Source of the DNA: Pseudooceanicola onchidii
GTDB taxonomy: Bacteria; Pseudomonadota; Alphaproteobacteria; Rhodobacterales; Rhodobacteraceae
NCBI RefSeq assembly: GCF_004959925.1
Contig: NZ_SPUW01000002.1
Coordinates: 248,001-312,000, forward strand
Length of the DNA: 64,000 bases
Direction: 5' to 3'
Positions 19,170 to 28,149 of the stretch are shown here, in pieces. A program made the translations under genes and the position numbers. How positions within the stretch are numbered: position 1 is the stretch's first letter; each line of letters begins with the position of its first letter. A model generated the notes under the pieces. That model did no database searches. It was not told the origin of the DNA and was given only the letters and a program-made list of their open reading frames with translations.

Positions 19170-20387
19170 ATGACCGATATCACCATCCAGAAGCTGGGCC
19201 ACCACGGCGACGGGATCGCCCCCGGCCCGATCTTTGCGCCCCTGACCCTTCCCGGCGAACGGGTCAGCGGCACCCTCGACGGGCAGCGGTTGACCGACAT
19301 CCGGATCCAGGCGCCCTCGGCCGATCGGGTCGCGCCCCCCTGTCGGCATTTCAAAAGCTGTGGCGGCTGCCGGGTGCAGCATGCGTCCGACGATTTTGTC
19401 GCCGGGTGGAAGGTGGGCATCGTGGCCGAAGCGCTGCGCGCGCAGGGGATCGACGCCGAAATCGCCGGAATAGAGACATCTCCGCCACGGTCGCGGCGGC
19501 GGGCGGGTCTGTCGGCAAGGCGGACCAAGAAGGGGGCGCTGGCCGGGTTCCATGGCCGCGCTTCGGGCACGATCGTCGAGATCCCGGACTGTCAGCTGCT
19601 GCATCCCGACCTGCTGGCCGCCCTGCCGGTGGCCGAGGCCCTGGCAATGACCGGCGGATCGCGCAAGGGCGAGCTGGACGTGCAGGCGACGCTGTCGGAT
19701 TCGGGTCTCGATCTGGCCGTTAGCGGAGGCAAGCCGCTGGACCGCGAGCTGGAGACCGCGTTGGCGCAACTGGCCGAACAGCATGACCTGGCCCGACTGA
19801 CCTGGGACGGAGAGGTCATGGCCACCCGCCGTCCGCCGTCGCAGCCCTTTGGTCCCGCCCGCGTGGTCCCGCCCCCCGGCGCCTTCCTTCAGGCCACCCG
19901 TGAAGGCGAGGCCGCGCTGCTGGCTGCGGTTCAGGACATCACCCGCGACGCATCGCGCATCGCCGACCTTTTTGCCGGGTCGGGCACCTTTGCCCTGCCG
20001 CTGGCGCAGCGGGCCGAAGTTCTGGCGGTCGAGGGCGACAAGGCGATGATCCGTGCGCTGGATCGCGGCTGGCGCGAGGCGCAGGGCCTCAAGAAAGTGC
20101 AGGCCGAGGTGCGCGACCTGTTCCGCAATCCGATGCTGCGCGACGAATTCAGGAAGATCGACGCGGTGGTCATCGACCCGCCCCGGGCCGGGGCCGAAGC
20201 GCAGGTCACCGAACTTGCGCACTCCGGCGTGCCGGTCATCGCCCATGTGTCGTGCAACCCGGTGACCTTCGCACGCGATGCGGCGCGATTGATCGCGGCG
20301 GGCTACAGGATGGGGCCGGTCACCGTGGTCGACCAGTTCCGCTGGTCGGCACATGTCGAACTGGTGGCAGGCTTCCGCCTCACATGA
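19170..20387 (+). CDS. Class I SAM-dependent RNA methyltransferase, RlmD/TrmA family
   Basis: A 405-residue RNA uracil-C5 methyltransferase-like protein. An N-terminal TRAM-like beta domain is followed by CRHFKSCGGCRVQH (about residues 58-71), which with another Cys makes a possible iron-sulfur site as in RlmD. The Rossmann motif I is LFAGSGTFALP (about 267-277), the base-flipping DPPRAG segment is near 332, and the catalytic Cys is in HVSCNPVTFARD (about 362). Whether it acts on 23S rRNA U1939, U747 or tRNA U54 cannot be read from sequence. Confidence 0.9.
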   Translation: MTDITIQKLGHHGDGIAPGPIFAPLTLPGERVSGTLDGQRLTDIRIQAPSADRVAPPCRHFKSCGGCRVQHASDDFVAGWKVGIVAEALRAQGIDAEIAGIETSPPRSRRRAGLSARRTKKGALAGFHGRASGTIVEIPDCQLLHPDLLAALPVAEALAMTGGSRKGELDVQATLSDSGLDLAVSGGKPLDRELETALAQLAEQHDLARLTWDGEVMATRRPPSQPFGPARVVPPPGAFLQATREGEAALLAAVQDITRDASRIADLFAGSGTFALPLAQRAEVLAVEGDKAMIRALDRGWREAQGLKKVQAEVRDLFRNPMLRDEFRKIDAVVIDPPRAGAEAQVTELAHSGVPVIAHVSCNPVTFARDAARLIAAGYRMGPVTVVDQFRWSAHVELVAGFRLT

Positions 20388-20462
20388 TCGTGAGGGGGCC
20401 GCGGCCCCTTCTCGGACAGGGTCGATTCAGGGTATAAGGCCCAAAAACCCGAGGCAGTCTTC

Positions 20463-20960
20463 ATGCGTTTCATTTCCCTGATCCTCGCGGTCGCGATGGC
20501 CTTTGCGCTGTCGGGCTGCGCGTCCAAGTTCAAGACCTATAACGGCCCCGAAGTTACCCGCGTGCTCGTCTACAAGGGCGACCGCAAGATGTACCTGATG
20601 CACCACGACAAGGTGCTGAAAAGCTACAACATCGACCTTGGCTTCGCGCCGGTCGGGCACAAGCAGTTCGAAGGGGACGGCAAGACGCCGGAAGGCACCT
20701 ACTTGATCGACCGCCGCAATCCGAACAGCGAATTCTACCTGTCCGTCGGGATGAATTACCCCAACACAAACGACGTGGCCTTCGCGACCTCGCAGGGCCA
20801 GCGACCGGGCGGGGACATCTTCATCCATGGCCAGCCGGAACGGTTCAAGAAGGTCTCGCGCCGGGACTGGACGGCCGGCTGCATCGCGGTGAAGAACCAC
20901 GAGATCGAAGACATCTATGCGATGGTCAACGACGGCACGGTCATCACCGTCTACCCGTAA
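20463..20960 (+). CDS. L,D-transpeptidase lipoprotein (YkuD domain)
   Basis: A 165-residue lipoprotein with a YkuD domain, which cross-links or edits peptidoglycan stem peptides in the periplasm. The signal ends in a lipobox, ALSGC (Cys at about residue 19). The YkuD core spans about residues 34-165 with IFIHGQ and the nucleophile motif DWTAGCIAVKN (Cys near 139). It ends at a strong terminator and faces a CAP-domain lipoprotein gene; another L,D-transpeptidase gene lies 0.8 kb on. Confidence 0.92.
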   Translation: MRFISLILAVAMAFALSGCASKFKTYNGPEVTRVLVYKGDRKMYLMHHDKVLKSYNIDLGFAPVGHKQFEGDGKTPEGTYLIDRRNPNSEFYLSVGMNYPNTNDVAFATSQGQRPGGDIFIHGQPERFKKVSRRDWTAGCIAVKNHEIEDIYAMVNDGTVITVYP

Positions 20961-20965
20961 GCAAA

Positions 20966-20996
20966 AAGGGCCCGGCGTGATCGCGGGCCCTTGTTC
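20966..20996 (+). terminator. Rho-independent terminator
   Basis: Nine-base-pair stem AAGGGCCCG / CGGGCCCTT (20966-20974 with 20984-20992) followed by GTTCTT, five bases after the stop of the first L,D-transpeptidase gene. Confidence 0.8.
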
Positions 20997-21020
20997 TTCT
21001 GGTTCGAAATACCTTGGGGG
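20996..21020 (-). repeat. Dispersed gene-end repeat, copy 3 (diverged)
   Basis: On the minus strand this reads as a run of C, then AAGGTATTTCGAACC and GAAG, a diverged version of the GGAGTATTT...GAAG motif. It is followed by a GGCGGGGGCAAAGCCCCC hairpin, and lies between the convergent transpeptidase and CAP genes. Confidence 0.4.
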
Positions 21021-21053
21021 AGCCGTAGGCGGGGGCAAAGCCCCCATCCCCGA

Positions 21054-21593
21054 TCAGCTGCCGGGCGTGCCGGTGCCGCCACCCATGATCATCGTCCACC
21101 ACAGCTTGCCGCTGGATTCCTGGTACCAGGCAAAGCCCATGTCCCGCGCGCGGCGGTCCAGGATCACGCGGCGGGTGTCGTCCTGGTCCATCCAGGCCGA
21201 CAGCGTCTCGATCTCGGTCTCGTAGGTTTCCGAGATGTTTTCGCCCAGCATGGCGCCGGAATAGCCTACGCGCTGGACACGATCCATCGGCGACGACCCG
21301 TCCGAGCCGAAGTGCCAGGGCCGATTCTGCCGCGCCATATCCTGTGCGTGGGTCGCGGCGGCGGCGGTCAGGCGGCTGTCCAGCGTCACCTGCGGCGCGC
21401 CCGAGGCCGCGCGCAAGCTGTTCACGGCATCCAGCACCTCGTAGGGAATTTTCTGCTTTCCGTTCGCGGGGATGCGATAGAGTTTGGGCAGCGGCTTGCC
21501 ATCCGTCCCCAGCCGTTGCGGCTGCGAGGTGGGGACCGGCGCGCAGGCGGTCAGTGCGACCAGTGCCGCTGCGATCATGAGGGGTAGCCGCAT
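21054..21593 (-). CDS. CAP-domain lipoprotein
   Basis: A 179-residue envelope protein with a lipobox (ALTAC, Cys near residue 17) and a CAP/SCP-PR1 domain from about residue 52 to the end. Family features are the helix LDAVNSLRAASGAP, RLTAAAATHAQDMA, and the GENIS motif with its cavity His and Glu residues. Bacterial CAP proteins are often linked to the cell wall or secretion; the substrate is unknown. It lies between two L,D-transpeptidase genes, which hints at a cell-wall role. Confidence 0.9.
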   Translation of the reverse strand: MRLPLMIAAALVALTACAPVPTSQPQRLGTDGKPLPKLYRIPANGKQKIPYEVLDAVNSLRAASGAPQVTLDSRLTAAAATHAQDMARQNRPWHFGSDGSSPMDRVQRVGYSGAMLGENISETYETEIETLSAWMDQDDTRRVILDRRARDMGFAWYQESSGKLWWTMIMGGGTGTPGS

Positions 21594-21775
21594 CAGTTTT
21601 CGTCCCGTATGTGCTTCATCTTTCGGTCAGTCCTAGCGAAAGCCGTGCCCACGATCAAACCCACATCAGCGTGAGTCGGCCTGTCGCGCGGCTTTGATTT
21701 GTCTCTGTCGTTTTCGCGCCATATTGTAGGGCACATCCGGAATCCTTCCACAGAACCATTTCAGTCAGGTCAGAC

Positions 21776-22393
21776 ATGAGCAGACGTTCCCCTTCCCGCC
21801 GCGCCTTTCTTGCCGGCTCTGCCGCGGTCCTCGCGAGCCCCGCGCTTGGACAGACCAGCAACTCAGGGCTTTACGCATCCCCTTTCGAGAATTCGACCGA
21901 GGTCGAGCGTGACCCTAACGAAGTCGTGCGCCACAATATCTCAAGCTTCCGGTCTCTGGACTGGCGGCCGTATTTCTCGAACACCAGAAATGGCGCGATC
22001 CTTGTCGATATCGACAGCCGCGCGCTGCATTACTGGTCGGAAGACCAATCGGTCTACAAACTCTACCCGTCGTCGGTCCCGGTCTCGGAAGAGCTGACCC
22101 GCCGCGGCCGGACCTCGGTCGTGCAGAAGGTCGTCAAGCCGACCTGGCGTCCGACCCCCGCGATGCAGAAGCGCAACCCCGAATGGCCCGCCGTGGTCGA
22201 AGGCGGCGCGCCGGACAACCCGCTTGGGCCGCTCGCGCTCTACCTGGGTTGGACCTACTACCGCATCCATGGCACCCACGACACCCGCAAGATCGGCCGC
22301 CGGTCGTCGAACGGCTGCATCGGCCTTTACAACGAACACATTACCGAGCTGTTCGACCTGACCAACGTCGGTACGCAGGTGTTGCTTATTTGA
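21776..22393 (+). CDS. L,D-transpeptidase with twin-arginine signal
   Basis: A 205-residue YkuD-domain protein. The N-terminus has a Tat-type signal (SRRAFLAGSAAVLASPALG, cleavage after ALG), so it should be exported folded. The catalytic region is YRIHGTHDT (His) then SSNGCIGLYNEH (Cys near residue 181), and the wider family segment NPLGPLALYLG is present. It matches the ErfK/YbiS/YnhG group that ties lipoprotein to peptidoglycan or makes 3-3 cross-links. Different export route and sequence from the transpeptidase at 20463-20960, so the two are not recent duplicates. Confidence 0.93.
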   Translation: MSRRSPSRRAFLAGSAAVLASPALGQTSNSGLYASPFENSTEVERDPNEVVRHNISSFRSLDWRPYFSNTRNGAILVDIDSRALHYWSEDQSVYKLYPSSVPVSEELTRRGRTSVVQKVVKPTWRPTPAMQKRNPEWPAVVEGGAPDNPLGPLALYLGWTYYRIHGTHDTRKIGRRSSNGCIGLYNEHITELFDLTNVGTQVLLI

Positions 22394-22435
22394 CGACATT
22401 GCGGCGTTGCAGCATGGCGCGGTGTTAACAAGCAT

Positions 22436-22464
22436 TTGCAATCGCGCGGGTTTGCTGCTTAGAA
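22436..22464 (+). promoter_or_regulatory. Candidate sigma-70 promoter
   Basis: TTGCAA (22436-22441) and TTAGAA (22459-22464) with a 17-base spacer, about 70 bases before the start of the 59-residue membrane protein gene. No other gene is near enough downstream. Confidence 0.5.
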
Positions 22465-22533
22465 CGAAGTACGAGGTAAGTCTTGGGTGCTGGATAGGTG
22501 TGTGTGCCTTCCAGCGAATATCTGGAGGATACT

Positions 22534-22713
22534 ATGAAGAAACTCGTTCTCGCCGCCGCTCTGGCAGCAGCCGCTTCGACCGCAACCGCAGGCTCCTACG
22601 CCGAGCCGGTTATCGAAGCACCGGTCGTTGTCGAAGAGACCACCTCTTCGTCCGCTGGCATCGTGATCCCGCTCCTGCTGCTGGCCGTTGTTGCCGTCGC
22701 AGCTGCAAGCTAA
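22534..22713 (+). CDS. Small membrane protein located next to hemH
   Basis: A 59-residue protein: an N-terminal signal-like segment (MKKLVLAAALAAAASTATA), a short polar loop (EPVIEAPVVVEETTSSS) and a C-terminal transmembrane stretch (AGIVIPLLLLAVVAVAAAS). From memory, similar short proteins sit beside ferrochelatase genes in Rhodobacteraceae; no function is known to me. GGAGG at 22524-22528 and ATG at 22534 define the start; an upstream in-frame ATG-less extension is unlikely. It faces hemH, from which it is now separated by a 2.66-kb transposon. Confidence 0.8.
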   Translation: MKKLVLAAALAAAASTATAGSYAEPVIEAPVVVEETTSSSAGIVIPLLLLAVVAVAAAS

Positions 22714-22736
22714 GATCACCTGAAGCAATTCAGGTT

Positions 22737-22764
22737 AAGGGCGGTGCCTCGGCACCGCCCTTTT
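22737..22764 (+). terminator. Rho-independent terminator next to the insertion site
   Basis: Stem AAGGGCGGTGC / GCACCGCCCTT closed by a CTCG loop, followed by TTTT. The transposon's 8-bp target duplication (22762-22769) begins inside this T tract, so the element inserted right at the end of the terminator. Confidence 0.88.
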
Positions 22765-22769
22765 CATTT
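22762..22769. repeat. Left target-site duplication (TTTCATTT)
   Basis: Eight bases identical to 25431-25438, directly outside the terminal inverted repeats. Eight-base duplications are the rule for IS1595-family insertions. The perfect match suggests a fairly recent event. Confidence 0.93.
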
Positions 22770-22792
22770 GGGGTCTATATACTTAACTAGCC
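22770..22792 (+). repeat. Left terminal inverted repeat
   Basis: Twenty-three bases starting GGGG and ending ACTTAACTAGCC. It matches the reverse complement of 25408-25430 at 20 of 23 positions, including the 12 innermost bases. Confidence 0.93.
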
Positions 22793-22803
22793 GACCCGAT
22801 CAG

Positions 22804-22830
22804 CAGGGCCGATCCGAAAAACCGGCCCTG
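22804..22830. other. Hairpin inside the left end of the transposon
   Basis: An 8-base-pair stem CAGGGCCG / CGGCCCTG around an 11-base loop, 29 bases beyond the stop of the Cas2-like gene. There is no T tract on either side, so it may be a weak terminator or a binding feature of the element end. Confidence 0.5.
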
Positions 22831-22859
22831 AGTCGATGTGTCGCCTTACTTTAGGCGTG

Positions 22860-23132
22860 TTAGGCGGCTTTATTCCAGGCGTCAGCAAGCCCATCAACTA
22901 GGAGGTTCTGCCATGCAGCCGAAGAACACCTGCACACCATTAACGAGTCCTCTTTTCGGAGAATGGTCTTCAGATGATCACGAAGCTGAACAGCCGTCCC
23001 GTCGTAGTCGAGCCACCATACAGTTTCCAAAATCCTTGCCCTATTCGAACCCAGCCGAGAGAGAAGTTTATCCATCTCTTGGTGAGACGGGTTAGGTCCG
23101 TTTAGGTCGTAAGTTACGATGTAGTTTGCCAT
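22860..23132 (-). CDS. Solitary Cas2/VapD-fold-like protein
   Basis: A 90-residue protein that looks like the small ferredoxin-fold group to which Cas2, VapD and so-called SinR-family proteins belong. The first strand ends in Tyr-Asp (NYIVTYDLN, Asp at residue 9, where Cas2 has its conserved Asp). A helix (SHQEMDKLLSRLG), a second strand (RILETVWWLDY), a second helix (AVQLRDHLKTIL) and a third strand (DSLMVCRCS) follow in the expected order. No cas1, other cas gene or repeat array is near. ATG at 23132 has AGGAA seven bases upstream. Could be a nuclease, a toxin, or structural. The assignment rests on pattern only. Confidence 0.5.
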   Translation of the reverse strand: MANYIVTYDLNGPNPSHQEMDKLLSRLGSNRARILETVWWLDYDGTAVQLRDHLKTILRKEDSLMVCRCSSAAWQNLLVDGLADAWNKAA

Positions 23133-23285
23133 GAGAAGTTCCTCTTGTTGGCATCAGAAGGAACCGCCGGGGGTTGACCCATCCGTCTAAACGACGGTAC
23201 AAGACAAGCGTTATATAACATCAGAGCGCCCCCAAACGGCGTTACGGGAAGCACGGCAGGACCACGAATCCTAGCCGTGCTTTTT
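23133..23285 (+). ncRNA. Candidate structured small RNA ending in a terminator
   Basis: This gene-free stretch between the two passenger genes can fold on the plus strand. An outer pairing joins CGCCG-GGGG (about 23164-23173) with CCCC-AAA-CGGCG (about 23228-23241). An inner hairpin CCGTC-TAAAC-GACGG lies inside it (about 23182-23196). A terminal hairpin GCACGGC-AGGA / TCCT-A-GCCGTGC (23251-23280) is followed by TTTTT. The U tract is only on the plus strand, against the direction of both flanking genes, so it does not serve them. I saw no convincing plus-strand promoter; pairings could be chance. Confidence 0.35.
23249..23285 (+). terminator. Intrinsic terminator on the strand opposite the passenger genes
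   Basis: Stem AAGCACGGC / GCCGTGCTT extended by an inner AGGA / TCCT pairing, then TTTTT at 23281-23285 and GTCGTT. On the minus strand no T run follows. It would stop transcripts entering from the left before they run antisense into the 347-residue gene. Confidence 0.7.
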
Positions 23286-23378
23286 GTCGTTAACACACCT
23301 TTAATCGCGAGTCCACGGCGCGACCAGAAATTGGGTGTTAGCGCGGAACATTTTGGCATTTTCACCAGATATTGCGGA

Positions 23379-24422
23379 TCAGCCCTCCAGTCGCTTTTGC
23401 TCGAAGAGCGCCGCGATTTGCTCCGCTTCCTCCTTGCCGCCCTTGAGAAGGTTCGCCTTGGTCAGGATGTATTTCGGGAATTTTGTCGGTAAGTAAATGT
23501 GCCGGAACCACCGTCTGAAGGTTGGCAGGGCTTCGTCCGGATATGCCCATGGTTGTTGCGGATTGCTAGCGGATTGGGGGTAGTAGTCCGGGTAGTTGTG
23601 TTCGTATTTGATGCGCGGCCCAAAGCGCTCCTCAAGGCTGTTTTCGGTCCAGAACTTGCCCCAGGCCAGCCCTACGCTGATGTCAGGCAGCGTCTTGTCA
23701 TTCACGGTCAGGTCGGCGTTAATCAGGTCCACGGCGAGGCCGGTCGTCTCGGAGAACAGAATAAAGTGGCCGTCCGGCGAGCTGTCCTTGAGTAACGAAA
23801 CGCGATCATTGAAGTATCGCCACTTATCTTCAGGCGCATAGTCCAGCGCCTTGTAGATGAACTGCTGAAGTCCGTAACGAGCAAGGTTGCGGTAGTTTGC
23901 AACCGCAGTTTCATTGGTCCTCTGCGCTTCGAACGCGAAGTACTCTACGAACGCCATGCAAACAATGTCCGGGTAGGCGTAGTATGGAGAGCCGTTCTTC
24001 GAAATCTCGATGAACATTCGCGGCTCGTCATACCCGTTCTTGAAGAGATAGTCCTTGAAGAATGCCATCCTTCCGCGTGGGGGGATCGGATCGCCGAACG
24101 TTTGCTCCCACTCTTGGGTAACCTCGTAAATAGTCGCTCGGGCCGCGCCGGTCATTTGAGCCAACCCGCGTTGCGTAAGATATGGCATGCCGTTTTGTAG
24201 GACGCCCATTTCAATGCCGTTAACTTCACGCTCAACCTGAATGCCGAGGTCAAGGCGTAGTTGCACAGGGGGTGCCGGACTTTCAGCAGAAACCTTGCCT
24301 AAGTACTTGAAGTTATTACCGTCTTGGGGTGCCGCCTTGTGGGCTTTAGGCGCAACTGCTCCAACAACCTCATCAAAGGTCGCGTCGATAGGTTCGATGA
24401 CGTCTTTCTTCTCATCAGGCAT
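23379..24422 (-). CDS. Transposon passenger protein, possibly P63C/BstA-like
   Basis: A 347-residue protein of uncertain function encoded just after the transposase. Its ATG (24420-24422) overlaps the transposase stop by 8 bases and has AGGAGG seven bases upstream, so the two are co-translated. The N-terminal motif IDATFDEVVGAVAP and the following VLQNGMPYLTQRGLAQMTG recall the start of P63C-domain proteins, some of which I remember as IS1595 or phage neighbours and which include BstA-type phage-defence proteins. The remainder is helix-rich with aromatic segments (YYAYPDIVCMAFVEYFAFEAQ, WRYFNDR) and a C-terminal FRRWFRHIYLPTKFPKYI. The family call is weak; no catalytic motif is recognised. 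Confidence 0.7.
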   Translation of the reverse strand: MPDEKKDVIEPIDATFDEVVGAVAPKAHKAAPQDGNNFKYLGKVSAESPAPPVQLRLDLGIQVEREVNGIEMGVLQNGMPYLTQRGLAQMTGAARATIYEVTQEWEQTFGDPIPPRGRMAFFKDYLFKNGYDEPRMFIEISKNGSPYYAYPDIVCMAFVEYFAFEAQRTNETAVANYRNLARYGLQQFIYKALDYAPEDKWRYFNDRVSLLKDSSPDGHFILFSETTGLAVDLINADLTVNDKTLPDISVGLAWGKFWTENSLEERFGPRIKYEHNYPDYYPQSASNPQQPWAYPDEALPTFRRWFRHIYLPTKFPKYILTKANLLKGGKEEAEQIAALFEQKRLEG

Positions 24423-25347
24423 TGATCAGCCTCCTGTATGTCAGCCGTTTGTCGGCCATGCGCTCGATGGTCATGTTGATGAAGTCCATGGTGCCGACCT
24501 TGGACGTGTTGTGACGGAAGGAGAACTCCTTCACGTAGCGGTGTAGGTGCTTGGCGCTCATGTAGTGGTAGATGCCATAGTGACCGCGCTTTAGCAGCGC
24601 CCAGAAGCTTTCGATGCCGTTGGTGTGCGCCATGTCGCGGACATACTCGCCTACGGAATGGTTGATCCGGATATGGGTGTAGCCGCTGGCCTCAAGGCCG
24701 ATGTAGCCGCCGTGCTGGTCGGTGACGATGGTTGCGCCGGTCTTGGCGTGATCCCGAACGAAGCGCTGAAGCGTGGACGCTTTAGTGCTGGCAACCGGGA
24801 CGGCGCGAACCTCACCAGTTTCCGACCGGACGCCGACAACTGCGGTCTTGCCGACAGCGCCGCGACCGGCATTCAGCTTCTTGCTGGCGTGCTTGTTCTT
24901 CTCTTTGCCGCCCACGTAGGTCTCATCAACCTGAACCTGACCGTCCATGTGGTCGTCGCGGTCTTTCAGCCAAGTCTCGCGGATGCGCTGTGCGAGGAAC
25001 CATGCGGTTTTCTGGGTGACGCCAAGTTCCCGCGCCATCTGTGTGCTGGGAATACCCTTGCGGGCGCTGGTAAGCATGTAGATCGCCAGCAACCACTTCT
25101 GAAGGGGAAGGCGGCTTTCGGCCAGCACGGTGCCGGTGCGGACGCTGAAATGCTTCCGGCAGTCACGGCAACGGTAGGGCATCGGCTTGTGGTTCTTGAC
25201 CTCAACCACATTGACCGATCCGCAGTGACCGCAAACCGGCTCATCAGCCCAACGGCGAGTTTCGAAGAACTTCCGCGCCGCTTCCTCATCCGGGAACTTC
25301 CGGAAGAATTCGAAGGTGGAGAGGGTTTCGGGCTTGTCGCTGCACAT
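24415..25347 (-). CDS. IS1595-family transposase
   Basis: A 310-residue DDE-type transposase. The N-terminus has a zinc ribbon, CGHCGSVNV ... YRCRDC (about residues 38-64), as in IS1595/ISXO2 proteins. A helix-turn-helix-like segment (STQMARELGVTQKTAWFLAQ) follows. The catalytic core has the first Asp in VQVDETYVGGKEKNKH, the second in IVTDQHGGY, and the third acidic residue in NGIESFWALLKRG with the downstream YGIYH. ATG at 25347 is chosen because AAAGGA lies eight bases upstream; a TTG at 25380 falls inside the repeat region. All motifs are intact, so the enzyme may be active. Confidence 0.95.
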   Translation of the reverse strand: MCSDKPETLSTFEFFRKFPDEEAARKFFETRRWADEPVCGHCGSVNVVEVKNHKPMPYRCRDCRKHFSVRTGTVLAESRLPLQKWLLAIYMLTSARKGIPSTQMARELGVTQKTAWFLAQRIRETWLKDRDDHMDGQVQVDETYVGGKEKNKHASKKLNAGRGAVGKTAVVGVRSETGEVRAVPVASTKASTLQRFVRDHAKTGATIVTDQHGGYIGLEASGYTHIRINHSVGEYVRDMAHTNGIESFWALLKRGHYGIYHYMSAKHLHRYVKEFSFRHNTSKVGTMDFINMTIERMADKRLTYRRLINA

Positions 25348-25369
25348 AGGGAAAATCCTTTCCCGAACA

Positions 25370-25398
25370 TAACTAGCCAAACCCGCCGATCACGTCAA
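25370..25398 (-). promoter_or_regulatory. Candidate transposase promoter overlapping an internal repeat
   Basis: On the minus strand, TTGACG (25398-25393) and TAGTTA (25375-25370) are separated by 17 bases, about 23 bases before the transposase start. The -10 region lies inside an extra inverted copy of the repeat end (AACTAGCCAAA at 25371-25381), matching TTTGGCTAGTT at 25405-25415. Binding of transposase to this copy could block its own promoter. Confidence 0.45.
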
Positions 25399-25407
25399 GC
25401 AATTTTT

Positions 25408-25430
25408 GGCTAGTTAAGTATGTAGGTCCC
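25408..25430 (-). repeat. Right terminal inverted repeat
   Basis: Twenty-three bases; its reverse complement starts GGGACC and ends ACTTAACTAGCC, matching the left end at 20 of 23 positions. Confidence 0.93.
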
Positions 25431-25438
25431 TTTCATTT
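25431..25438. repeat. Right target-site duplication (TTTCATTT)
   Basis: Identical to 22762-22769. Joining the flanks with a single copy restores a continuous terminator T tract leading to GCGCAAAG and the hemH 3' end. Confidence 0.93.
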
Positions 25439-25482
25439 GCGCAAAGCGTATCGCGCGCAGACGGTGCCGCAGGGCCGCCGGA

Positions 25483-26526
25483 TCAGTCCAGCCAGCCCTT
25501 CAGGTTCTCGGCGATCTTGCCGGTCAGTGCCGCGATATGCGCATCGTCGTCGTTCAGGCAGGGAATGTAGGTAAAGCTCTCACCGCCAGCGTGTTCAAAG
25601 CTTTCCTTGATCTCTTCGTTGATCTCTTCCAGCGTTTCGATGCAATCCGCCGAAAACGCCGGGGCAATCACCGCGATCTTCTTGTTGCCCTTTTCCGCCT
25701 GCCGCGCGACTTCTTCGACGGTGTAGGGCTGCAGCCAGTCCTCGGGGCCGAATTTCGATTGGAAGGTCGTCATGATCCGGTCGTCTGCCCAGCCCAGCCG
25801 TTCCTTCAGCAGCCGCGTCGTCTTCTGGCACTGGCAGTGGTACGGGTCACCTTCGGTCAGATAGCGGAACGGCAGGCCGTGGTAGGAACAGATCAGGATG
25901 TCCGGCTCCTGATCCGCCGCCGCATAGGCGCGTTCCACCGACCGCGCCAGCGCGTCGACATAGGCCGCATCGTCGAAATAGGGCGGCAGGGTGCGCGAGG
26001 CCGGTTGCCACTTTTCCTCCATCAGGGCGCGAAAGAACTGGTCGTTGGCGGTGGCCGTCGTGGCGCCGGCGTATTGCGGATACAGCGGGCAGAACAGGAT
26101 TTTCGTACATCCTGCCGCCACCATCTTTTCGACCTTCGACTTGGTCGACGGATTGCCGTAGCGCATGCAGTAGTCGACCATCACGGCGTCGCCGTAGCGG
26201 GCGGTCAGCGTCGTGGTCAGCTTGGCCACCTGCTGTTTGGTGATCGTCATCAGCGGCGATTCGTTCGCCTCTTCGTTCCAGATCGATTTGTAGGCCGCGC
26301 CGGATTTGAACGGCCGGATCGACAGGACGATGCCCTGCAGGATCGGCTGCCACTTCCACCGGGGATAGTCGATGACCCGTTTGTCCGACAGGAATTCGGA
26401 CAGGTAGCGCCGCATCGGCCAATAGCTGGTGTCATCGGGCGTGCCGAGGTTGGCGATCAGGATGCCGACCTTTTCCTTCGGCAGTTTCGGGTGATCGGCG
26501 GGCGCATGGGCCGGGCATTCGCTCAT
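25483..26526 (-). CDS. hemH: Ferrochelatase
   Basis: HemH inserts ferrous iron into protoporphyrin IX, the last step of protoheme synthesis. The 347-residue length is normal. Recognised segments are the N-terminal KVGILIANLGTPDD, the region KVEKMVAAGCTKILFCPLYPQYA, the ferrochelatase signature LICSYHGLPFRYLTEGDPYHCQCQ-type block with the iron-site His (SYHGLP), and a C-terminal VIAPAFSADCIETLEEI motif with its conserved Glu. ATG at 26526. The transposon sits 45 bases beyond its stop, so the gene itself is untouched; the convergent terminator at 22737 formerly lay close to its end. Confidence 0.97.
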   Translation of the reverse strand: MSECPAHAPADHPKLPKEKVGILIANLGTPDDTSYWPMRRYLSEFLSDKRVIDYPRWKWQPILQGIVLSIRPFKSGAAYKSIWNEEANESPLMTITKQQVAKLTTTLTARYGDAVMVDYCMRYGNPSTKSKVEKMVAAGCTKILFCPLYPQYAGATTATANDQFFRALMEEKWQPASRTLPPYFDDAAYVDALARSVERAYAAADQEPDILICSYHGLPFRYLTEGDPYHCQCQKTTRLLKERLGWADDRIMTTFQSKFGPEDWLQPYTVEEVARQAEKGNKKIAVIAPAFSADCIETLEEINEEIKESFEHAGGESFTYIPCLNDDDAHIAALTGKIAENLKGWLD

Positions 26527-26577
26527 ATTCTGTCCCTTACATCTGTTGTCCCGGACCTAGCGACTTTGCCCGGTCCG

Positions 26578-27402
26578 TCAATCCTTCAGCGGCACTTCGC
26601 GCGCATTCAGCGCATCTGCCAGCCGTTGTGCCGCCGACCCGGGGCGCAGCGGTTTGGGCTGGCTGTCGTCGGGGGCCCAGCCGGTCAGGGTGATCAGCTC
26701 GAATGTGGCGGGGATGCGCGCGTCGCTGCCATAGGCCTCTACGTAGATCTCGGCGGCGCGGATCAGAATGGCGCGACGGGTCGGGTGACGCAGGCGGGCG
26801 TGCAGGGCGTTGCCTTCGCCCATGGCCCGAAGCTCTCGCATCAGGTGCAGGGGCGAGGCATAGCTGACCGTGAAGGGATGGCCGTCGGCGACCGGCAGGG
26901 CCAGGCCCGCGCGTTGCAACAGCGCGCCAAGATCGCGGATCTCGGCCATCGGGGCGACACGGGGCGACAGGCCGCCGGTGATCTCGCTTTCTGCCTGCGC
27001 CAGCGCGGCGCGCAGTTCGGTCAGGGTCTGCCCGCCGGGCAGAATCGCCAGGAACAGGCCGTCGGGTCGCAGCGCGCGGGTGCACTGGATGATCTGGCCA
27101 ACCGGATCGTCGGCCCAGTGCAGCGCCATGGCGTGGATCACCAGGTCATGCGCGCCCTGGTCCAGGTCAAGAACATCGTCGTCGGCGATCACCTTCGGCT
27201 CTAGTCCCGGGAAATCGGCCCATTTCGCGGGGTGTCCGGTCACGATCACGGGCGACGTAAATGACCTGTTAACCATGGCGAGGCGATCCTGAAGATCCTC
27301 GATGGCGAGGTCGTGCAGGAACAGCGCCTCGGCCTGCGCCCGGGCGCGGTTGCGGCCAAGGGCGGTGCGATCGGTCAGGCGGGGGGGCTCGGTTCCGGAC
27401 AT
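26578..27402 (-). CDS. BioC/NDUFAF5-like methyltransferase
   Basis: A 274-residue SAM-dependent methyltransferase-fold protein. The N-terminus (LTDRTALGRNRARA, then FLHDLAIEDLQDRL) and the DLVIHAMALHWADDP and GLFLAILPGGQTLTELR segments resemble the alphaproteobacterial relatives of mitochondrial NDUFAF5 and of BioC. The classical glycine-rich SAM loop is poorly conserved (VIVTGHPAKWADF in place of GxGxG), which is also seen in this subgroup. Start ATG at 27402 lacks an obvious ribosome binding site and lies only 12 bases from the divergent comF start. Confidence 0.75.
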   Translation of the reverse strand: MSGTEPPRLTDRTALGRNRARAQAEALFLHDLAIEDLQDRLAMVNRSFTSPVIVTGHPAKWADFPGLEPKVIADDDVLDLDQGAHDLVIHAMALHWADDPVGQIIQCTRALRPDGLFLAILPGGQTLTELRAALAQAESEITGGLSPRVAPMAEIRDLGALLQRAGLALPVADGHPFTVSYASPLHLMRELRAMGEGNALHARLRHPTRRAILIRAAEIYVEAYGSDARIPATFELITLTGWAPDDSQPKPLRPGSAAQRLADALNAREVPLKD

Positions 27403-27414
27403 GGAGGCATAGAT

Positions 27415-28149
27415 ATGCGGGCAGCCGCGATACTGCAAACGGGGCTGCGGCTGATTTATCCGCCGACCTGCCTGACCTGTGATGCGCTGGTCTCGGTCGA
27501 CCATGGGCTTTGCGGTGCCTGCTGGCGGGACACCCCCTTTGTCGGTGCGCCGGTCTGTCAGACCTGCGGCGCGCCCCTGCTGGCCGATCATGCCGAAGAG
27601 GGCGAGCTGTGCGACGATTGCCTGCGCTTGCCGCGCCCCTGGCAGGCGGGGCGCACGGCGCTGATCTATCGCGGGACGGGGCGCAAGCTGGTGCTGGGGC
27701 TGAAGCACGGTGACCGGCTGGATATCGCGGGGCCCGCCGCCGTCTGGATGGCCGGGGCCGCGCGCGACATCGTGCAACCGGGGATGCTGGTCGCGCCGAT
27801 CCCGCTGCACTGGCGGCGCCGGATCAAGCGGCGCTACAACCAGTCGGTGCTGTTGGGTCGCGGGGTGGCGCGGCACCTGGGGCTGGCGTTCTGCCCTGAT
27901 CTGCTGCTGCGCCCCGCCAAGACCCCGGTGCTGGACGGCATGACGGTGCAGGATAGGTTTGACACGATGGCGATGGCCCTGACGCTCAACACGGCGCGCG
28001 CGGGGCGGATGCGCGACCGTCCTGTGATGCTGATCGATGACGTCATGACCTCGGGCGCGACGCTTTCGGCGGCCACAGGGGTGCTTTTGCAGGGGGGCGC
28101 GCAGACCGTTTCCGTGCTGACACTGGCGCGGGCGGTCAAAGAGACATAG
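27415..28149 (+). CDS. comF: ComF-family phosphoribosyltransferase-like protein
   Basis: A 244-residue ComF/GntX-type protein. The N-terminal zinc-ribbon part has CLTCD, CGACW, CQTCG and CDDC pairs (about residues 17-70). The C-terminal PRTase fold ends in the PRPP-binding motif VMLIDDVMTSGAT (about 200-212). ComF proteins take part in natural DNA uptake in some bacteria; in others their role is unclear. GGAGG at 27403-27407 sets the ATG at 27415 and cuts off a longer open frame that overlaps the methyltransferase gene. Confidence 0.9.
   Translation: MRAAAILQTGLRLIYPPTCLTCDALVSVDHGLCGACWRDTPFVGAPVCQTCGAPLLADHAEEGELCDDCLRLPRPWQAGRTALIYRGTGRKLVLGLKHGDRLDIAGPAAVWMAGAARDIVQPGMLVAPIPLHWRRRIKRRYNQSVLLGRGVARHLGLAFCPDLLLRPAKTPVLDGMTVQDRFDTMAMALTLNTARAGRMRDRPVMLIDDVMTSGATLSAATGVLLQGGAQTVSVLTLARAVKET

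Follow-up and report, generated by a model that had tools for sequence, protein, structure and literature searches.

The element and its genes

The 64,000-nucleotide stretch of Pseudooceanicola onchidii DNA analysed here (the window; contig NZ_SPUW01000002.1, positions 248,001 to 312,000) contains a complete IS1595-family transposon of 2661 bp at window positions 22770–25430. Its three genes all lie on the minus strand and encode a transposase, a BstA-type protein that begins with a short peptide, termed here the tag (gene 2), and a small Cas2-like protein (gene 3). In related elements the same tag precedes proteins of other families, and it is this combination of a constant tag and changing modules that is the main subject of this work. 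The features of the element are as follows.

22762–22769, unstranded: left copy of the target duplication TTTCATTT, within a T-tract after a terminator hairpin (22737–22762)
22770–22792, plus strand: left terminal inverted repeat, 23 bp, matching the right end at 20/23 positions (87%); the same repeat occurs in sibling elements
22860–23132, minus strand: gene 3, Cas2/VapD-like protein of 90 amino acids (PHROG 1090, 7.9e-16; PADLOC Cas2b, 3.2e-4; a 62% relative in genome G127)
23133–23300, plus strand: structured non-coding stretch with a terminator-like hairpin (folding z -3.46)
23379–24422, minus strand: gene 2, tagged BstA of 347 amino acids, its start overlapping the transposase stop by 8 bp
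24342–24422, minus strand: N-terminal tag MPDEKKDVIEPIDATFDEVVGAVAPKA, 27 aligned codons
24415–25347, minus strand: IS1595-family transposase, 310 amino acids from its ATG (NCBIfam transpos_IS1595, 2e-59; Pfam)
25408–25430, minus strand: right terminal inverted repeat, 23 bp, 20/23 against the left end
25431–25438, unstranded: right copy of the target duplication TTTCATTT, 8 bp, identical to the left copy

A sequence-only reading had claimed inverted repeats of 23 bases matching at 20, an exact 8-base duplication, an intact DDE transposase with an N-terminal zinc ribbon, and two further genes with a gene-free structured stretch inside, all of which were borne out. A search of window positions 20001–28000 returned a single 8-bp duplication with inverted ends enclosing genes, the pair listed above. 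The transposase frame is open and scores 201.1 bits against a cut-off of 75 for NCBIfam transpos_IS1595, with Pfam matches to Zn_ribbon_IS1595 (PF12760, 1.9e-9) and DDE_Tnp_IS1595 (PF12762, 3.2e-42); all 26 aligned transposase rows, the window's included, retain the first and second D and, in the third block, the N..E. The gene-free interval extends from 23133 to 23378.

The P. onchidii genome has one match to the element, which is inserted in the T-tract behind a terminator hairpin to the left of a gene reading as ferrochelatase (hemH). This gene was used to locate the site in five relatives. Three of them (G192, of the same genus, G055 and G076) have an empty site, with the small left-hand gene, the terminator hairpin and hemH but no element in between; the small left-hand gene was not found in the fetched stretch of the other two (G075 and G294). 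In none of the five were the passenger genes seen at the site without the transposase and repeats.

Judged by its sequence, the gene 2 product is a BstA homologue. Residues 52–342 match the PADLOC BstA model (PDLC02356) over nearly its full length (2.2e-119), PHROG 6287 is matched at 9.2e-108, and identity to BstA of BTP1 is 37% over 95%. Of the earlier guess of a P63C/BstA-like protein, the BstA part therefore stands and the P63C part falls, since the protein has no Pfam match above cut-off, although siblings do match P63C. According to the part of the published account available (Owen et al. 2021, PMC8585504), BstA blocks the replication of phage DNA and causes abortive infection. Of 72 homologues, 79% are prophage-associated and 21% prophage-independent; the genes often lie downstream of repressors, and a DNA element, aba, specific to each BstA, lies over the start of the bstA gene. 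The words transposase and insertion sequence do not occur in the text of PMC8585504. Unlike the mostly prophage-associated published proteins, the window BstA is tagged and borne on a transposon among host genes, not in a prophage downstream of a repressor.

A search for repeats resembling aba at the start of the tagged BstA genes gave nothing beyond chance: five of six loci have no pair of 6-nucleotide direct repeats in the equivalent 63 bp. The sixth, L040, has one such pair, as do 99/500 shuffled sequences; this concerns a repeat search only. A structure model of BstA built with 49 sequences has a mean predicted local distance difference test score (pLDDT) of 77.7, with residues 1–57 (tag and linker), which few alignment rows cover, below 50. 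None of 137 matches to PDB folds reached E <= 0.001. Two of 272 matches to viral models did so, with template modelling (TM) scores by query length of 0.30 and 0.27, which is a weak hint. Among the viral-model matches listed, 13/50 are named antirepressor, KilA, Bro-N, repressor or regulatory, likewise with low TM-scores.

A conserved tag and its exchanged modules

Related elements were sought with gene 2 and the transposase in samples of 295, 394, 385 and 390 genomes, mostly of one family. Nineteen elements, including that of the window, have a tagged gene 2. In 18 of these the tagged gene lies at the stop of a close transposase, and in the remaining one (L104) the transposase is decayed and the tag was picked up by a profile that did not contain L104 (4.7e-7). 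L134 is the same contig as L054 and the two were counted once. The same repeats and an exact 8-bp duplication were present in all 13 tag-bearing elements in which both ends were found (window, L002, L038–L043, L054, L063 and L065–L067), in support of the earlier assignment to IS1595 elements with passengers; one or both ends were not found in L037, L044, L053, L064, L069 and L104. Of the 18 aligned copies of gene 2, 17 begin 8 bp within the transposase stop (taking L063 from its ATG), and that of L054 begins 20 bp within it. The common plan is an end, the transposase, gene 2 overlapping the transposase stop, a variable third slot, and the other end. The modules behind the tag are distributed as follows.

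BstA, six elements: window, L002, L040, L054, L069 and, by similarity, L104
P63C (PF10546), nine elements: L038, L039, L041, L042, L043, L053, L064, L065, L066
RhuM (PF13310), three elements: L037, L063, L067
ParA-like ATPase (PF13614), one element: L044

A one-off capture of a prophage gene was considered for the window element and rejected after siblings with the same tag and other modules turned up. Two RhuM-type proteins that were scanned match the PADLOC candidate defence models PDC-S05, and RhuM has been proposed as a toxin domain of defence loci (PMC3710099, in the part available); a defence role for the module slot is coherent on these two grounds. The P63C proteins scanned (L038, L041 and L042) matched no PADLOC model.

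The tag comprises about 25 residues at the N-terminus of gene 2, with a sequence close to M-A-D-K-K-D-x-I-E-P-I-D-A-x-F-D-x-V-V-x-A. The independent tests of it are L104 and profiles built without one module class, which recovered the left-out tags in 5/5, 9/9, 3/3 and 1/1 cases, the weakest matches being L065 (0.0056) and L044 (1.5e-4). In the 18-row alignment conserved residues are encoded freely: V21 is present in 18/18 rows with four Val codons, P12 in 17/18 with four and I13 in 18/18 with three. Since the conserved residues use many codons, selection acts on the peptide. At the DNA level, 104 pairs of genes with different modules are on average 71 and 75% identical in the last 300 nucleotides before the ATG, 61% over codons 1–25 and 45–46% thereafter, the level for shuffled sequences being 46.3 (standard deviation 2.1). 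For 49 pairs with the same module the corresponding values are 71 and 79%, 61%, and 46–50%.

These data bear on the possibility that the tag is a mere translation-start region coupling gene 2 to the transposase gene, with the modules being independent defence cargo that arrives by recombination behind it. An overlap of 8 bp in 17/18 genes does fix the first residues, and such cargo would suit both BstA, a defence family (Owen et al. 2021, PMC8585504, as far as available), and the RhuM-type proteins with their PDC-S05 matches. However, conservation reaches to about residue 25, far beyond the overlap, amino acids are kept while synonymous codons are free, and untagged homologous BstA proteins begin directly at the domain, so that we regard this explanation as rather unlikely. 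Still less can be said for a plain IS1595 element with captured passengers in which the tag is a relic that no longer has a role. Passenger-carrying IS1595 elements are already known (PMC5704250, in part), but here the modules match different families and descent of whole genes from one ancestor does not explain a shared tag; the tag also persists, with invariant residues, across transposases down to about 64% identity to that of the window, and its codon pattern suggests purifying selection. A relic is accordingly judged highly improbable.

Tag identity correlates with transposase identity (Mantel r 0.43; 33/5000 permutations as high) and not with module (r -0.01; 2631/5000 permutations as high). 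A search of the 390 genomes with the tag profile gave 11 matches at E <= 3.7e-11. Each lies where such a transposase ends, and the 11 genomes concerned are the same as those with a transposase match at E <= 1e-100. The six matches that follow (E 0.016–0.044) are at chance level for 390 genomes, and no tag was found away from such a transposase. All 11 tagged genes were themselves in the profile, and the informative part of this search is the absence elsewhere. Nearly all outside homologues of three of the modules likewise lack the tag. Of the best 80 of 204 BstA loci in viral contigs, 78 had no tag at E < 1 and the other two are the contigs of L104 and L054. All 18 alignments to plasmid P63C proteins begin at residue 47 or later; among the 40 rows listed for plasmid RhuM (72 records), 39 have their first aligned residue at 33 or beyond and the remaining one at 12; and the L037 tag had no match in plasmids at E <= 1. 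By these comparisons the tag is conserved as a protein and is inherited with the transposase rather than with the module. The BstA N-termini of two prophage contigs (L106:4001–4060 and L111:4001–4070) are faintly tag-like, not significantly so by profile, and are possible remnants.

The module label has to change 7 times across the 18 rows of a transposase tree, and BstA alone is forced to at least 3 changes by well-supported branches. On the same tree L066 (P63C) and L069 (BstA), the latter represented by a single piece of a broken transposase, form a well-supported sister pair. In a quick tree of 53 BstA proteins the six tagged ones fall in three places (window with L104 and L002; L054; L040 with L069), and in the BstA tree three changes are forced by supported branches, with several long branches and a program warning attached. 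On this comparative evidence the cargo is exchanged repeatedly at a fixed junction behind a transposase-linked tag, because the tag follows the transposase, not the module, and was not found away from this transposase in the 390 genomes or in nearly all of the outside homologues searched.

IS1595 transposases outside this set also had genes beside them. One element of a different lineage (L197:4073–7768; 16/16 end bases matching, 8-bp duplication GAAATATC) has a KilA-N protein beside its transposase. In L046:111–2017 (the same as L004), near a contig edge, an untagged BstA lies about 20 bp from, and facing, the transposase of another IS1595 lineage; transposon ends were not found in L046. An untagged element (L081:2358–4941), with the same duplication TTTCATTT as the window element, has an apparent adenine methyltransferase after its transposase, recognised by eye from a DPPW motif.

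Possible roles of the tag

The presence of the tag on unrelated modules suggests that gene 2 does not simply ride along as cargo. We propose, with about even confidence, that the tag binds the transposase and that modules fused behind it become part of the machinery of the element, giving it DNA localisation or phage defence. The transposase and gene 2 would be translated from one message through the kind of coupling that is common among overlapping genes. The partner bound by the tag would be constant, most probably the transposase itself, and any module fused behind the tag would in this way join the element's machinery; the modules would be DNA-located or anti-phage proteins. In this setting BstA would gather where phage or plasmid DNA is replicating and halt that replication, which would protect the host and hence the element, and through the tag it could also place or restrain the transposase at replicating DNA. 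Gene 3 would occupy a separate exchangeable effector slot. A stronger version, in which the tag is a socket specific to this transposase and swapped plug-in modules give each copy its own target choice or anti-rival weapon, is put forward more tentatively, as somewhat doubtful.

Several observations weigh against docking and free exchange. The module label is clustered on the transposase tree, requiring 8 changes with outgroups compared with a shuffled mean of 11.0 (as low in 1/200); the modules being partly clustered, exchange is therefore recurrent, not constant. The correlation between tag and transposase drops to r 0.19 (simple p about 0.05) without L044, L054 and L002, and the ParA case is a single long-branch element (L044). 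Close transposases also occur without a tag, in L068 (a second, shorter copy, in G805) and L083 (a plasmid copy, residues 8–270 matched), and L055, an element of 1127 bp, has exact ends but carries no passenger; contig ends truncate two further close copies, L045 and L048. The transposase C-terminus, aligned with untagged IS1595 relatives, has no tag-specific extension. Phage defence by the window BstA rests on homology.

Gene 2 might instead be chiefly a transposition factor for target choice or transposase control, with modules recruited for DNA binding or following and with defence secondary. Inheritance of the tag with the transposase agrees with this, as does the weak DNA association of the BstA fold in the viral-model matches described above (13/50 listed, low TM-scores) and the KilA-N protein of the different IS1595 lineage L197; ParA-like proteins are DNA-associated. 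Against it, L055 has intact ends and no gene 2, and no insertion preference can be claimed. The duplications are AT-rich; hairpins adjoin the copies in the window, L040 and L041, and 5/13 insertion sites abut a hairpin compared with 89/1040 random positions, a control not matched for AT, so that a preference for terminators is not claimed. A primary role in transposition is in our view unlikely.

The element has partial parallels among known systems. Transporter insertion sequences of the IS1595 family (tISCpe8 and MTnSag1/tISSag10) share the IS1595 DDE transposase, inverted ends and internal passenger genes, and titles cited in the same source describe a lincomycin resistance element in one case and a mobilizable transposon in the other; a constant tag with exchanged modules is not described for them in the part of that source available (PMC5704250). 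With the published BstA abortive infection system (PMC8585504, in part) the window element shares a BstA homologue.

Tn7 TnsE/TnsD and TniQ are transposon proteins, separate from the transposase, that choose targets. They are alike by analogy only, in pairing a DNA-following protein with a transposase; the proteins are different. No description of the tag was found in the literature searched on IS1595, BstA, P63C, RhuM and KilA-N, subscription papers lying outside the search; among papers naming two of these terms, one, PMC10782964, pairs IS1595 with another of them, RhuM. Passenger-carrying IS1595 elements being known, the tag with its exchanged modules would be the new part. Should the tag dock modules to the transposase, these elements would be a small natural example of target choice or defence being altered through domain exchange behind a fixed adaptor, and siblings with different modules would be a ready-made comparison set. 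Even without docking, BstA-type genes travel outside prophages on a 2.7-kb transposon, which bears on the spread of such genes and on the role of BstA where there is no phage to protect.

The third slot and neighbouring features

The slot between gene 2 and the far end varies among siblings. It holds the Cas2-like gene in the window; a protein of 230–243 amino acids with a small opposite-strand gene in L002, L040, L104 and partly L069 (no Pfam family above cut-off where scanned); DUF3800 in L041, L065 and, broken, L037 (scanned in L041 only); a PemK-like protein in L053 and L066; an ImmA/IrrE-like protease in L042 and L064; and SocA/Panacea with a small protein reading as membrane-bound in L067. 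In L043 and L054 it is only 57 and 65 nucleotides long, with no room for a gene, and in L044, where the element end was not found, a DRAT gene follows. About 400 nucleotides without an obvious gene fill the slot in L038 (6012–6437), L039 (2491–2931) and L063 (5730–6129). Some 270 of these form a strongly structured, RNA-like stretch (z -4.88 in L039, -4.55 in L063) common to P63C elements (L038 and L039) and a RhuM element (L063). It is closed by a long stem and contains a hairpin that has the same stems in each of the three elements. Covariation is thin, with 7/100 predicted pairs changed on both sides and a covariation term of 0.15. Rfam matches to it did not rise above chance, viral contigs held no exact match to its pattern, and blastn against plasmids gave nothing.

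The earlier description of gene 3 as Cas2-like is reasonable in view of its PHROG 1090 and PADLOC Cas2b matches, although Pfam Cas2 (PF09827) is matched at 15.1 bits, below the cut-off of 23.8. Gene 3 resembles Cas2/VapD nucleases such as BPSL1038 (PMC10491678, in part) in its size, an N-terminal YD seen by eye and weak Cas2 matches; it differs in falling below the Pfam cut-off and in having no CRISPR gene among the genes of the element. The PDB sequence match to BPSL1038 is not significant (E 0.68), and a single-sequence structure model (mean pLDDT 49.6) is too poor to judge a Cas2-like, ferredoxin-like fold. The product matched 34 phage records, all below 60% identity; it had no plasmid match and none confirmed in viral contigs.

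Between genes 3 and 2 (23133–23378) there is no convincing gene. The plus strand of 23133–23300 folds better than shuffled sequences, with the minus strand much less clear (z -1.75). The hairpin-rich stretch noted by the sequence-only reading is conserved jointly with the Cas2-like gene in one other genome: in L188 (6772–7215, in G127) the 62% relative of gene 3 has the same structured stretch upstream and adjoins apparent rpoA and rplQ genes, and ends like those of the transposon were not found around it. Including the start of gene 3, the stretch is 72% identical over 221 nucleotides between the window and L188, and the plus strands of both beat shuffles (z -3.46 and -3.84). By eye, and in these two sequences only, the plus-strand hairpin has an identical loop and a stem altered on both sides; in L188 T-runs flank it on both sides. 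A consensus terminator scan did not list the window hairpin. An exact pattern search of viral contigs and a blastn search of plasmids returned no match to the stretch. Candidate interpretations of 23133–23300 are a small RNA opposite to the genes, a leader that regulates gene 3, and a simple terminator. A consensus promoter scan of the element found none, and Rfam gave no match in the window at gathering score and one chance-level match inside the element at a lenient threshold.

The genes to the left of the element (20463–22393) are ordinary, comprising L,D-transpeptidases (YkuD; scanned at 21776–22393, by eye at 20463–20960) and a CAP-domain protein (21054–21593).

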